Shown here: piece by piece, positions 15,847-22,616 of the stretch
How positions within the stretch are numbered: position 1 is the first letter of the stretch
How the letters are laid out: each line of letters opens with the position of its first letter
Virus record (IMG/VR): IMGVR_UViG_3300045973_000287
Coordinates: 1-23,677 of that record
Strand: one strand, 5' to 3'
Origin: a virus
Length of the DNA: 23,677 bases
Made by a program: the position numbers and the translations under genes
The notes under the pieces: model-generated
The model's database searches: none
Seen by the model: the letters and a program-made list of their open reading frames with translations, nothing else
What the model was told of the DNA's origin: nothing

Positions 15847-16761
15847 ATGGGTATTGAGCTCGACAAAGATATGGCCGCAACGCTGACCGAGGAAGAACTG
15901 GCAGCGATCAATGATTCTGAAATATCGGAGGAAGAACTTGCCTCGATGAAAGGCATTGCCGAAGGCGCGGGCGAAGACGACGAGGACGAAGACGATTCAG
16001 ATGGCGATCTTCCGGTAGAAAAACTAGCTGCGAAAGAGGCCGCCAAGACCGCCGTGGCCGATGATGAAAACACTGAATCGAACAACGATGATGCCGACGC
16101 GGAAGCATTCAAGCCGAAGTATCAGGCCCAGCTTCCGCAGGATTTCGCGGCGCAGATTGACTCGATCAAGACCGAGACGCGCACTCTGGCTCAGCAATTC
16201 AAGGAAGGTGACATCGACCTTGATGAATACAACATCAAGGTTGAGGCGCTGAATGAAAAGCGCGATGGTCTGATGCAGCAGAAGCTCAAGGCTGACATCT
16301 TTAGTGAAATGGATCACCAGACGGCCGAGCAGCAATGGCAATGGACGATCAACCAATTCACTTCGAAAACAGCGAAGAGCGAAGGCATTGATTACCGCAA
16401 GGATCAGGAGAAGGCGGCTGACCTGGATATTTTCGTCAAGCGCCTGGCCGAGAGCCCGGCCAATTCCGACAAGCCAATGGATTGGTTCCTGGTCGAAGCC
16501 CATAAGCGCGTCATGGCGCTGCATTGCATAGCCCAGACCGACGCCAGCGCACCGAAGGACAAGCTCAAGGAAGCCAAGGAGTCACGCAAGCCGCCGCTCG
16601 GTAATGCACCGAAGACGCTGGCCCAGGTTCCTGGTGGCGATGGTCCTGGCGATATGGGCAATGAGTTCAATGATCTCGACGGCCTGGATGGTATCGATCT
16701 GGAGTCCGCGATCGCCAAGATGACCCCGGCGCAGCGCGAGCGATTTGCCAAGGCAATGTAA
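15847..16761 (+). CDS. Capsid scaffolding protein
   Basis: This encodes 304 aa with GGAG about 9 nt upstream. The composition is that of a scaffold: an acidic N-terminus (GEDDEDEDDSDGD near 41-54), long predicted helices (QIDSIKTETRTLAQQFKEGD, DEYNIKVEALNEKRDGLMQQ), no cysteine-rich or catalytic motif, a Pro/Gly linker, and a C-terminal helix (DLESAIAKMTPAQRERFAKA). It lies just before the coat gene, the usual scaffold position. No sequence family is recognised with certainty; the function rests on composition and order. Its stop overlaps the CsrA-like gene (ATGA). Confidence 0.75.
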   Translation: MGIELDKDMAATLTEEELAAINDSEISEEELASMKGIAEGAGEDDEDEDDSDGDLPVEKLAAKEAAKTAVADDENTESNNDDADAEAFKPKYQAQLPQDFAAQIDSIKTETRTLAQQFKEGDIDLDEYNIKVEALNEKRDGLMQQKLKADIFSEMDHQTAEQQWQWTINQFTSKTAKSEGIDYRKDQEKAADLDIFVKRLAESPANSDKPMDWFLVEAHKRVMALHCIAQTDASAPKDKLKEAKESRKPPLGNAPKTLAQVPGGDGPGDMGNEFNDLDGLDGIDLESAIAKMTPAQRERFAKAM

Positions 16762-16952
16762 TGACCGAGCCGCTATCTCGCCTGATTGTCGATGTTCGCC
16801 CGGGTGAAGTGCTTTGCACATCGCTCGGGGTATCGATTGAACTGGTGCAGAAGAGCGGGCAGCTTGCCCGGCTTCGCGTTACAGCGCCTCGCGATGTGAA
16901 GATCGAGAAGCAGGGCACACCGAACAATCACGTTGCAAGCATGGCAATGTAG
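16761..16952 (+). CDS. CsrA-like RNA-binding protein
   Basis: This encodes 63 aa and overlaps the scaffold stop by ATGA. Its first 50 residues align by eye with CsrA: VRPGEVL for the RRVGETL turn, VSIELVQKSGQLARLRVTAP for the strand pair ending in (N/T)AP, and RDVKIEKQ for KEVAVHRE. The key CsrA RNA-binding arginine (E. coli Arg44) is Lys here, a mild change. CsrA dimers bind GGA motifs in mRNA leaders and block or open ribosome sites. The next gene, coat, has two GGA motifs and an occluded ribosome site just downstream, so it is the obvious target. Scaffold, in the same operon, is a second candidate. RNA binding is inferred. Confidence 0.65.
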   Translation: MTEPLSRLIVDVRPGEVLCTSLGVSIELVQKSGQLARLRVTAPRDVKIEKQGTPNNHVASMAM

Positions 16953-16980
16953 CAAATGCAGGTAAAGCTGTGGCGCGCAG

Positions 16981-17020
16981 GAAGTGCTCCATGAACAAAG
17001 TAATTTTCTAGGAGTACTTC
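16981..17020 (+). promoter_or_regulatory. RNA stem that encloses the coat ribosome-binding site
   Basis: gaagtgctcc (16981-16990) pairs over all 10 positions (one G-U) with ggagtacttc (17011-17020) around a 20-nt loop. The 3' arm contains the GGAG Shine-Dalgarno and ends 1 nt before the coat ATG at 17022. As folded, coat translation should be blocked. GGA motifs lie at 16980-16982 and 17011-17013, 31 nt apart. Confidence 0.6.
16991..17011 (+). CDS. Candidate six-codon leader peptide MNKVIF
   Basis: ATG at 16991 is followed by five sense codons and TAG at 17009-17011, giving MNKVIF. AGGA at 16979-16982 lies 8 nt before the ATG, an excellent ribosome site. A ribosome starting here would cover the 5' arm of the coat stem (16981-16990) and would stop exactly on the coat Shine-Dalgarno, freeing it for re-initiation at 17022. 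It is too short for any family evidence; the arrangement alone suggests a translated leader. Confidence 0.35.
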   Translation: MNKVIF

Positions 17021-17021
17021 A

Positions 17022-18137
17022 ATGGCACGCACTATTGTTGGCGTCAATGACGCCAAATCCGTGAAGCGTTGGGCCGGTCTGTTGGCTTACGATACTTCGC
17101 AAAAGTCCTATTTCAATCAGCGATTCATGGGTCGCGGCGCCGAAGCCGAAGTGCCCATCCAGATCCTGACCGATCTTGAGTCCGATGCTGGCGAACAGAT
17201 CAGCTATGATCTGCTGGCCGAGCTCAAGATGGCGCCGGTCGAAGGTGAAGACACCCTCGAAGGCAAGGAAGAATCGCAGAAGTTCTACACCGATGCGATC
17301 TACATCGATCAGGCGCGCTGCGGCGTGAATACCGGTGGCCGTATGACGCGCAAGCGCACGCTGCACAACCTGCGCGAGAAGGCCAAGCGCCAGCAATCCA
17401 GCTGGTGGGGCCGTTTGATGGATGAAATCCTGTTCATCTACCTTTCCGGCGCTCGCGGTATCAATGCCAATTTCCTGTTGCCGACCGGCTATACCGGCCG
17501 CGCCAACAACGCCCTCGTTACTCCGGACAGCAATCACATACTGTACGGCAATGATGCCACGGCCTTCAACAACATCGACGCGACCGACAAGTTCGACTTA
17601 CGCCTGGTTGATCGCGCGAAGACCAAGGCCGACGCGCAGGGCGGCGGCGCTACCAGTATCCCAGTCCTGCAGCCTTGCAAGATCGATGGCAACGAAACCT
17701 TCGTTTGCGTCATGCACACCTTCCAAGAAGATGACTTGCGCGCCAATACGAATACCGGCCAGTGGATGGACATCCAGAAGGCTGCCGCTTCTGCTGAAGG
17801 TCGCAACAATCCGCTGTTCAAGGGTTCGCTTGGCATATACCGCGGCGTGATCCTGCACAGCCACCGAAATGCCATCCGTTTCAACACGGCCGGCGCTGGC
17901 GGTAACGTGGAATCCGCTCGCGGTCTGTTCCTCGGCTCCCAGGCCGCTGTCGTTGCCTTCGGTTCACCGGGTACCAATCTGCGCTTTGACTGGCACGAAG
18001 AAACCCGCGACAACGGAGACAAGGTAGTTATATCAACGTCATCAATCTTCGGCGTCAAGAAGGTGTCATTCAACACTGATGTTGGCATGCAAGACTTCGG
18101 CGCTTTCGCGCTGGATACCGCTGCCGCATCCCGCTAA
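17022..18137 (+). CDS. Major capsid protein (Phage_capsid_3 / N4 gp56-like)
   Basis: This encodes 371 aa beginning MARTIVGVNDAKSVKRWAGL. Family-like segments are SQKSYFNQRFMGRGAEAEVP, ISYDLLAELKM, the RQQSSWWGRLMDEILFIYLSG helix with GARG, and VCVMHTFQEDDLR. The length and order (after scaffold, before a Gly/Ala-rich decoration-like protein) fit a HK97-fold coat of the N4 gp56-like family, where the scaffold is a separate protein. The start has GGAG 7 nt upstream, inside an RNA stem. Coat should be the most abundant late product, which makes the closed ribosome site notable. Confidence 0.88.
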   Translation: MARTIVGVNDAKSVKRWAGLLAYDTSQKSYFNQRFMGRGAEAEVPIQILTDLESDAGEQISYDLLAELKMAPVEGEDTLEGKEESQKFYTDAIYIDQARCGVNTGGRMTRKRTLHNLREKAKRQQSSWWGRLMDEILFIYLSGARGINANFLLPTGYTGRANNALVTPDSNHILYGNDATAFNNIDATDKFDLRLVDRAKTKADAQGGGATSIPVLQPCKIDGNETFVCVMHTFQEDDLRANTNTGQWMDIQKAAASAEGRNNPLFKGSLGIYRGVILHSHRNAIRFNTAGAGGNVESARGLFLGSQAAVVAFGSPGTNLRFDWHEETRDNGDKVVISTSSIFGVKKVSFNTDVGMQDFGAFALDTAAASR

Positions 18138-20228: not shown

Positions 20229-22616
20229 GTGTCTATTTTTTTCCTCGACTACGAAGGCGGAAGCGACGCTGCTGATGGCCTGACATTCCCAAATAGATGG
20301 AAGACCATCACTGCCGGGGCTACTGCTGCCCGTATCGCTCCCGGTGACACGATCCGCGTTATGGGTTCGCCTGCGCCTACGTTGGTCGGGAATGGGACTT
20401 GGACGAATGGGCCGCTGGCAGCTAGGTATGCGTTGGCGGGGGCGCTTTTCTCAAATACAACTCCAATTAAAGTTTCATACATAGTTTCATACATAAATAA
20501 CGGTGATACCGTTATTGTTGATAGCGTTGTAGGTAATACATCTGCAAACGGAGTTTGGATTGTATCCAACAAAGGTGCGTCTGACTTTGAGTTGCTAAAC
20601 GCTGATGGTTCTGCGTCTGTAGGAAACGGAACAGGTAGCGGAACAGGTGGTATTCGCAATTTCACAAATTCAGTGGTCACTCTTGCATCTGCTGTCACCG
20701 CAAACATTGCAGAGTGCGGAAACCGTGGCGTAAAGCCAAACTGGACGGCATCAGCAAACGTCACTTGCGCTAAATCAACGGCTGACTTTAAAGAAGGTGG
20801 CGAGTGTCAGCAAATCGCAGTTGCAGCCGCATTCACAACTGGACTAGCCGCATACTTCCCGACAGGAACGCTCAACCTATCTGACTATCAACAAGTCAGC
20901 TTCTGGATCAAGCAGACGGTAGGAACGCTTGGTGCAGCATCGTCAATCAGCCTGGCACTATGCTCTGACATTGCCGGTGTTACTGCGGTCAATACGGTCA
21001 ACATTCCCGCACTTGGTGCGATCAATCAATGGTCGCCAATTAAAATTGATCTGGCTACGGCACTCGGCTCATCCATTCAGTCTATAGCCCTGTACGTCAA
21101 CACCGACAACGCGGCTCAAACCTTCCTGATTGATAACGTCATTGCCTGCAAAGCATCGTCGTCTGCGGATAGCCTGAACCTGACTTCGCTGATTAGCAAA
21201 GACCCCGGCGACCATACTTACGGCGACGGTTACGAATGCTGGTTCGGCCTTCAGTCAATCAACAAAACGCGCGTTGTGCTGGATGGGATTGTAAATACGA
21301 TTCCAGCAGCATCTCCGCAACGCGGATACGCCGGGGCGACTGAGACAGTATCAACGTACATGCGCGAAACCATCAAGACGCCGATGGCTGCAAACACTAC
21401 TGTTGGCGCACACATTGTTCAAGACTTTGGAGCGTTAGGAAGTCTTATTTCGTTCTCTGGTGGGTGGGACAGAACTGATATGTCAACCAAGACGCTGGAA
21501 TCTTGGTTCGATGGTCAGAATGGTTTTGGTATTTGTGTTGTTCCAAACACCAAAGCATTTACAGCGTATGACAGGATTCACGGTGCAAGGTACACCAATG
21601 TGTTCAGCGGTGGAGTAGCCGATAGTGATCAGACGATTATAAGGATGGATGCTGCTAATTGTTCATCCAGTCCTGTCATCACTACAGGCAATAGATTAAC
21701 CGCAACAACTCTATCGGCGGTCTGCTGCGGCGGTGCAATCACTCCCGGCACAGGTTCAGTTGTGCAGACGATTGGTCGTTCTGACTCTTCTTCTGTTGGC
21801 AATGGACTGACCACAGGGAATGGTAGCCAGACTCTGGAGGTTAAGCAGGCAAATAACAACTTTTTCGGAGGAGTAATTTCCGGCATATCTTCCTACATAC
21901 GCAATATATTTGCTGCTAATGGTAATAACGGCGCAGGTTATTCTCCCGGAGCAAGGTCTGTCTGCGAGTTGGTTACAGCAAACTACAATACATCGAACGG
22001 AATAAATTTTGGCTCAAGCACAAATGAAGGCGCATTGGTGCTTGGAGGATCGTCAGTCGGTAACGCGTTTAGCGGGATAGGTTTGAGTAACGCGAGTGGA
22101 ACCATTCGCAACTTCACCATCAACGAAGCCGCCGAAGTCAGCGGATACACTGGATACCACGATGGCCGCGTCTACTCAGAAAATCACGATGGCATAGCAG
22201 GTAATGTGAAAATCTTTTGCGACGGTGGATTGATCGGTACTGTTGCTACTCCGGTTCATGGCTCATCTTCGCTGGCGTGGAAGTTCAGTCCTACATCTGC
22301 AAACCGCAGCCAGTATTACCCGCTAAATCAGTCAATCGCAAAGGTGGCCTGCGGCGCATCTACGCTCGTTACTGTATCGGCATGGTTCCAGCGTAGCAAT
22401 ACCGGACTGACTGGAAACCTCGTCTGCAAAGGTGGTCAGATCGCAGGCGTAGCGTCTGCCATTTCGGAAACTATGACCGCTGCTGCGAATACATGGGAAC
22501 AACTCACAATCACCTTCACCCCGTCTGAGGCTGGTGTTGTTGAGATTGAATCCCAGTTCTACGGCGGCACAACCTACAACGGATATGTCTGCGACATGTC
22601 CATTTCACAGGCGTAA
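20229..22616 (+). CDS. Large tail fibre or receptor-binding virion protein
   Basis: This encodes 795 aa from a GTG start at 20229. It is almost wholly beta-structured by composition (Gly, Ser, Thr, Asn, Val). The N-terminus (FFLDYEGGSDAADGLTFPNR) resembles the virion-attachment start of beta-helix fibres. Residues about 80-140 (VSYINNGDTVIVDSVVGNTS, ANGVWIVSNK) look like an inserted small beta domain. The middle (about 165-310) resembles a lectin-like sandwich, residues about 450-640 a beta-helix (short Asn/Gly turns), and the end (from about 660) a carbohydrate-binding-type jelly roll (VTVSAWFQRSNTGLTG, TWEQLTITFTPSEAG). It should bind the host surface. No depolymerase motif is recognised. 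Confidence 0.75.
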   Translation: MSIFFLDYEGGSDAADGLTFPNRWKTITAGATAARIAPGDTIRVMGSPAPTLVGNGTWTNGPLAARYALAGALFSNTTPIKVSYIVSYINNGDTVIVDSVVGNTSANGVWIVSNKGASDFELLNADGSASVGNGTGSGTGGIRNFTNSVVTLASAVTANIAECGNRGVKPNWTASANVTCAKSTADFKEGGECQQIAVAAAFTTGLAAYFPTGTLNLSDYQQVSFWIKQTVGTLGAASSISLALCSDIAGVTAVNTVNIPALGAINQWSPIKIDLATALGSSIQSIALYVNTDNAAQTFLIDNVIACKASSSADSLNLTSLISKDPGDHTYGDGYECWFGLQSINKTRVVLDGIVNTIPAASPQRGYAGATETVSTYMRETIKTPMAANTTVGAHIVQDFGALGSLISFSGGWDRTDMSTKTLESWFDGQNGFGICVVPNTKAFTAYDRIHGARYTNVFSGGVADSDQTIIRMDAANCSSSPVITTGNRLTATTLSAVCCGGAITPGTGSVVQTIGRSDSSSVGNGLTTGNGSQTLEVKQANNNFFGGVISGISSYIRNIFAANGNNGAGYSPGARSVCELVTANYNTSNGINFGSSTNEGALVLGGSSVGNAFSGIGLSNASGTIRNFTINEAAEVSGYTGYHDGRVYSENHDGIAGNVKIFCDGGLIGTVATPVHGSSSLAWKFSPTSANRSQYYPLNQSIAKVACGASTLVTVSAWFQRSNTGLTGNLVCKGGQIAGVASAISETMTAAANTWEQLTITFTPSEAGVVEIESQFYGGTTYNGYVCDMSISQA
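20471..20494 (+). repeat. 12-bp tandem repeat in the fibre gene
   Basis: agtttcatacat occurs twice back to back (20471-20482, 20483-20494), adding the repeated peptide VSYI. It lies at the start of the AT-richer inserted domain (about 20450-20660) and may mark a recent duplication or recombination joint. Confidence 0.6.

Follow-up and report, generated by a model that had tools for sequence, protein, structure and literature searches.

The window, that is, the whole 23,677-base virus record analysed here, belongs to a podophage whose portal is P22-like and whose capsid protein is of the Phage_capsid_3 type; the Bcep22-like phages and PBC5 are related to it. Its coat (major capsid protein) gene is preceded by a leader with two overlapping hairpins, A and B, and a csrA-like gene is the immediate upstream neighbour of leader and coat gene (Table 1). 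Neither a sigma-70 promoter nor a terminator was found at the coat leader, a search with 4227 Rfam covariance models against positions 16850-17120 gave zero matches up to E 1, and relaxed motif searches inside the window returned matches at or below chance level. A 795-aa ORF at 20229-22616, without Pfam or PHROG match, is by its position probably a receptor-binding or tail protein.

Table 1. Coat gene, leader elements and neighbouring csrA-like gene in the window.
Feature	Position	Strand	Evidence and remarks
csrA-like gene (63 aa); product proposed to bind RNA and regulate in trans	16761..16952	+	phrog_8397, Pfam CsrA, RsmE profile, AF2/Foldseek
Hairpin A, core GCGC (16975-16978), loop AGGAA (16979-16983), GUGC (16984-16987); putative CsrA site	16970..16992	+	exact core match, conservation
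Hairpin B, GAAGUGCUCC (16981-16990) with GGAGUACUUC (17011-17020)	16981..17020	+	MFE fold, covariation, forced-A folding
Mini-ORF MNKVIF	16991..17011	+	present, judged incidental; in no other distinct leader
Coat Shine-Dalgarno AGGAG	17010..17014	+	inside 3' arm of hairpin B (sequence)
Major capsid protein gene, 371 aa	17022..18137	+	ATG at 17022 (sequence); phrog_334 major head protein, E 1.6e-113; Pfam Phage_capsid_3, E 8.9e-61

The modelled product of the upstream gene has a CsrA fold. The window protein matches the CsrA-like regulator phrog_8397 (E 7.6e-11), and Pfam CsrA (PF02599) is matched by 47/52 relatives at E<=1, with a best value of 1.3e-8. On its own, the window protein reaches 17.8 bits, which is under the 27-bit Pfam CsrA cut-off; BcepIL02 CsrA is above it. 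A profile of the family finds RsmE in the PDB (2jpp, E 8.2e-8). The AF2 model of the window protein has a pLDDT of 87, and the best 15 PDB matches found with it by Foldseek are all CsrA, RsmA or RsmE (E 8e-3 and up), most with an rmsd of about 1.1 A. At position 4, one of the RNA-contact positions of CsrA (L4 and R44), most of the CsrA-like proteins have a hydrophobic residue (I/V/L/M). The window protein has K instead of R at position 44, and lacks R6.

The original prediction placed a 10-bp stem over the coat Shine-Dalgarno. This stem, hairpin B, is present with one G-U pair, and is included in the minimum free energy fold of the surrounding 121 nt (-42.6 kcal/mol, z = -3.87, 0/200 shuffles equally stable). 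For comparison, 80 relatives were retrieved via the capsid protein, of which 56 distinct leaders were used for covariation; these relatives, like those behind all conservation counts given here, are not mutually independent. The covariation signal on the stem is strong. In hairpin B and its upper part, 90 two-sided changes keep the pairing, compared with 37.4 +/- 6.5 in shuffled alignments, and the covariation score is 0.346, compared with 0.218 +/- 0.010 when shuffled. Shifting the pairing partner by 1-3 columns lowers the score. Hairpin B is thus real beyond chance, as judged from the aligned leaders. The wider claim that coat translation is regulated is very probably correct, through a conserved, covarying stem that buries the ribosome site (MFE, covariation and the forced folding described below).

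The most conserved part of the leader is, however, a second hairpin that had been missed. Hairpin A has the consensus GCGC-A.GA(N)-GUGC, to which the window version GCGC-AGGAA-GUGC is an exact core match, and GCGCA is invariant in the leader alignment (A1). Hairpins of this type, defined by a stem of at least 4 bp and a loop A.GA(.) or A.GGA., are found in 136/155 distinct capsid leaders (from four relative searches plus named phages), compared with a mean of 2 in dinucleotide shuffles. Variant stems remain paired (CCGC/GUGG, ACGC/GUGU, GGGC/GUCC). The loop has 4, 5 or 6 nt and the wobble G-U pair is kept in 131/136 leaders, as would be expected of an RNA element and not of a DNA operator. Covariation in hairpin A is weak within the closest group, because its arms hardly vary; its support comes instead from invariance, distant variants and recurrence. 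From alignment A1, RNAalifold recovers just the four core pairs of hairpin A, because one arm is contested between A and B and the length of the apical loops differs; each structure was therefore counted on its own.

Loops of the AGGA type are found in 86/136 capsid leaders, and ANGGAN, the loop described for RsmE (PMC7652899), in three (one branch, hexaloop). The CsrB repeat bound by CsrA, CAGGA(U/A/C)G, is the same as the hairpin A loop CAGGANG (PMC7652899). In the window, the loop AGGAA is closed by C-G and so presents GGA in a hairpin loop, as in CsrA targets, whereas many other hairpin A loops are AUGA or AAGA and fall outside the strict GGA rule. Among CsrA-like proteins that go with AGGA loops, 72/78 carry K or R at position 44, versus 11/30 of those that go with other loops, a difference that fits co-evolution but is confounded by clade and is kept as a hint.

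The 3' arm of hairpin A is also the 5' arm of hairpin B: both use GUGCUC (16984-16989), and the two are therefore mutually exclusive. Hairpin B is predicted to be more stable than A in 69/70 leaders, with a gap of about 9 kcal/mol. When A is forced in the window, the unpaired probability of the Shine-Dalgarno rises from 0.16 to 0.50; across 70 capsid leaders the median goes from 0.17 to 0.44, with a rise in 65/70.

The element is not confined to capsid genes. A strict motif found 65 sites in whole records, versus 11 for the reversed pattern (38 records), and 82 versus 4 in a further 23 records. Among 60 further sites, two of which precede additional capsid genes, 40 lie 28-59 nt before an ORF with an ATG start, at least 100 aa and a Shine-Dalgarno, compared with 14/600 random positions. 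Non-capsid sites precede endolysin, DarB and virion genes in PBC5, Atu_ph08, POI1126, Mwe-JY07, Itty13, LASTA, Skulduggery, F116 and 8P, and in these named phages are typically 32-44 nt upstream, on the coding strand. Genes of this regulon encode, among others, a structural protein of the virion (phrog_8003), an internal one (phrog_511), the giant DarB/endolysin protein (phrog_938, phrog_10089) and endolysins (phrog_315, phrog_181). Across 57 late leaders of non-capsid genes, the mean probability that the GUGC arm pairs downstream is 0.77, versus 0.32 with a shuffled spacer, and the initiation region becomes more open in 55/57 when A is forced. The same A/B architecture in these leaders indicates that the two-state design is regulon-wide.

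In POI1126 gp26 (L131, 18521-18533) and Pavtok gp28 (L134, 42147-42159) the annotated GTG starts overlap the hairpin, and in both the real start seems to be a downstream ATG, whose spacing is close to that seen elsewhere. An exact conserved motif is also found inside the DarB coding sequence of DC1, JC1, CSP3 and BcepMigl (e.g. NC_018452.1:46734-46746), in DC1 about 0.9 kb from the annotated start, and could reflect an internal start or mere coding conservation. As it is not at an annotated gene start, it was left out of the regulon.

In another arrangement hairpin B is missing and the A loop itself holds the start codon or the Shine-Dalgarno: this is seen for the PBC5 integrase, F116 p49 and 8P 013, and in the latter two it is the Shine-Dalgarno that lies in the loop. 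The PBC5 integrase start codon sits in the loop of a GCGC-AUGA-GUGC hairpin (L132:961-972), which suggests that integrase translation may be repressed by the same CsrA-type regulator. In relatives, though not in the window, the gene upstream of csrA (phrog_8246) often has its start codon in a GCGC-AUGA-GU loop (L010:1745-1756, L018:1423-1434, L043:1742-1753, L064:1785-1796 and others), and GCGC lies directly 5' of AUG(A) at the phrog_8246 start in most of the distinct relatives examined. Feedback on csrA through coupling with this upstream gene is possible.

Nearly all relatives that have enough upstream sequence carry a csrA-like gene close to the capsid gene, and the two adjoin in BcepIL02, DC1, JC1, CSP3, BcepMigl, Pavtok, PEp14, LASTA, Skulduggery, Parlo and Itty13. 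Where genes have been inserted between the two, the element stays with the capsid gene, and it is also kept before the capsid gene in PBC5, Atu_ph08 and POI1126, in which csrA is elsewhere in the genome. In one relative (L007:1981-2868) a csrA-like domain and HNH-like sequence share a single stop-to-stop frame upstream of the capsid gene. The outgroup phages KLEP18-1 and ARM81mr have neither CsrA nor the site. In a clade of four (L028, L030, L031, L051), GCGC...GUGC is kept and the A.GA loop is lost, the arms being separated by just AU or AC; no csrA was detected in L028, and that of L030 and L031 is distant and divergent. A CsrA profile search of Mwe-JY07 detected none, and a CsrA-like short ORF is visible there by eye; CsrA was likewise undetected in six hairpin-bearing records (G055, G033, G058, G060, G061, G048), some of which are fragments. 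Seven prophage-bearing bacterial genomes have no CsrA above the Pfam cut-off, and their three sub-threshold hits are all inside prophages. Burkholderia cepacia and B. cenocepacia are reported to lack a chromosomal csrA, although their phages carry one (PMC7366521). In these hosts, the phage protein is the likely CsrA-type ligand.

These results are probably best explained, with considerable room for doubt, by a bistable leader that is read by the phage CsrA-family protein, with binding at A melting B and activating translation of virion and lysis genes. In the default and more stable state, B, GUGCUC would pair with the coat Shine-Dalgarno and initiation would be blocked; in state A, GUGC(UC) would fold back on GCGC and expose the A.GA(N) loop. 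A phage CsrA-like dimer binding this loop would stabilise A and melt B, freeing the ribosome site and turning coat translation on. The same hairpin precedes genes for endolysin, DarB, and internal and structural virion proteins, which suggests that CsrA would switch the translation of a whole late regulon. For the PBC5 integrase, F116 p49, 8P 013 and, in several relatives, the gene upstream of csrA, where B is missing and the A loop holds the start codon or Shine-Dalgarno, binding would lead to repression. From the computed hairpins, with their overlap and conservation, the regulon and the CsrA fold, we infer CsrA as the ligand of hairpin A, and more weakly that its net effect on the coat gene is activation. 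The predicted stability gap between B and A, which would be much for a single protein to overcome, counts against this reading, as do the AUGA and AAGA loops and the hairpin-bearing records in which CsrA was undetected.

The sign of the effect could be the opposite. A CsrA dimer might bridge the A loop and a GGA in the coat Shine-Dalgarno and repress the late genes, as a timing brake or autogenously. This is unlikely, but has real points in its favour: repression is the classical mode of CsrA, CsrA is known to bridge sites separated by 10-63 nt (PMC7652899), and betaproteobacterial leaders have AAGGAG, with a GGA in the Shine-Dalgarno through which a dimer holding both sites could repress. The Shine-Dalgarno of F116 p49 and 8P 013 in the A loop also points this way. 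However, several leaders of other clades have Shine-Dalgarnos without GGA (GAGGG, GAGGC), a second repressor would be redundant because B already hides the ribosome site, and the conserved overlap of A and B is most simply explained by A opening B.

Less probable still is a genuine A/B switch that works without CsrA: its reader could be a virion protein or a host factor, or it could need no ligand, in the manner of a co-transcriptional timer or temperature sensor. Hairpin A is the first to form during RNA synthesis, so that folding order alone could time translation, and both the AUGA and AAGA loops without GGA and the hairpin-bearing records with CsrA undetected would be accommodated. Against this, the GCGC arm and A.GA loop are conserved beyond the needs of B and across unlinked genes, which points to a reader acting in trans. 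Most of the genomes tested have a CsrA-fold gene, the site is missing from both capsid outgroups that lack CsrA, and in the clade that has lost the loop csrA is undetected or distant and divergent.

The original prediction instead had a ribosome on a short leader ORF melt the stem and hand over to the coat gene. The ORF is as described, with ATG at 16991, the peptide MNKVIF, TAG at 17009-17011 and AGGA (16979-16982) 8 nt upstream; it is intact and well spaced in the window, and in iraD, CsrA is known to act through coupling with a short ORF upstream (PMC5574718); a variant on these lines would be one in which CsrA blocks the AGGA of the ORF. However, MNKVIF was sought in the other distinct leaders examined and found in none: its start, stop and length are absent from them, and most of them have both hairpins. 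Other short leader frames vary among relatives in start, length and stop, and a GTG frame ends at the Shine-Dalgarno in about one third of leaders, which is within what chance allows. As no short ORF is conserved across leaders, leader-peptide control was rejected; with or without CsrA it is very improbable, and the mini-ORF is probably incidental. Of the two features whose joint absence from relatives was to count against the original prediction, the mini-ORF is indeed absent, and the stem is kept and covaries. The leader AGGA is more plausibly read as a loop that a CsrA-type hairpin exposes, given the conserved A.GA and the CsrA-like protein encoded next to it. Coat loss upon blocking of AGGA would still follow, because AGGA would be a CsrA-type loop and not the ribosome site of the mini-ORF.

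It is scarcely credible that the palindrome works as DNA, as an operator or late promoter ahead of late operons, in spite of its symmetry and its place before late genes, given the variable loop between fixed half-sites, the kept G-U pair, the tight distance to the start codon, the RNA covariation of the companion stem, and the failure to find a sigma-70 promoter or terminator at the coat leader.

The proposed activation by CsrA has precedents in bacteria. E. coli ymdA is activated by CsrA through melting of a hairpin that hides the Shine-Dalgarno (PMC7492729), and such a hairpin, opened by CsrA bound both at it and next to it, is what the phage leader is proposed to share with the ymdA leader. 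By folding, the initiation site that the hairpin hides is more open with A formed in 65/70 capsid and 55/57 other late leaders. Whereas ymdA is a host gene under host CsrA, the phage would use its own protein on a virion and lysis regulon, with an explicit alternative hairpin that shares one arm. Exposure of a hidden Shine-Dalgarno has likewise been proposed for activation of P. aeruginosa phz2 by RsmA and of moaA by CsrA, although these are single host operons and not phage genes (PMC7652899). The repeat hairpins of CsrB/RsmZ and the RsmE-hcnA complex (2jpp) resemble hairpin A in being short hairpins with a CAGGANG or ANGGAN loop; however, CsrB/RsmZ are sponge RNAs, while hairpin A has mostly tetra- or pentaloops A.GA(N) and is part of an mRNA switch.

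The phage CsrA/RsmA described in Bcep22-like phages, JC1, CSP3 and F116 is the same gene (PMC9144972, PMC10269572, PMC7366521, PMC8450108). Its position upstream of the capsid gene in Bcep22-like phages had been noted (PMC10269572), it was classed as a moron, a single peptide of it being detected in virions of JC1 (PMC9144972), and it was read as a possible repressor of host CRISPR (PMC8450108). The roles published there are thus moron, host manipulation and CRISPR repression. In the passages of the literature covered, with Gill et al. 2011 (Bcep22) outside the coverage, no link of phage csrA to late-gene leader hairpins was found.

Taken together, there is a somewhat better than even chance that a widespread family of podophages of about 55-65 kb, some with hosts that lack CsrA, has its own CsrA as a master regulator, which switches on virion and lysis translation via a repeated bistable leader. 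This would be the first phage CsrA regulon proposed in the literature searched, and would explain why csrA is beside the capsid gene. Phage csrA, until now read as a moron or host-manipulation tool, would gain a concrete job in controlling late translation of the phage itself, for which an RNA target can be named and a regulon listed. The matched protein-RNA pairs, with AGGA, AUGA, AAGA and ANGGAN loops, form a natural collection for the evolution of CsrA specificity, and late gene timing in tailed phages may possibly include a post-transcriptional layer.
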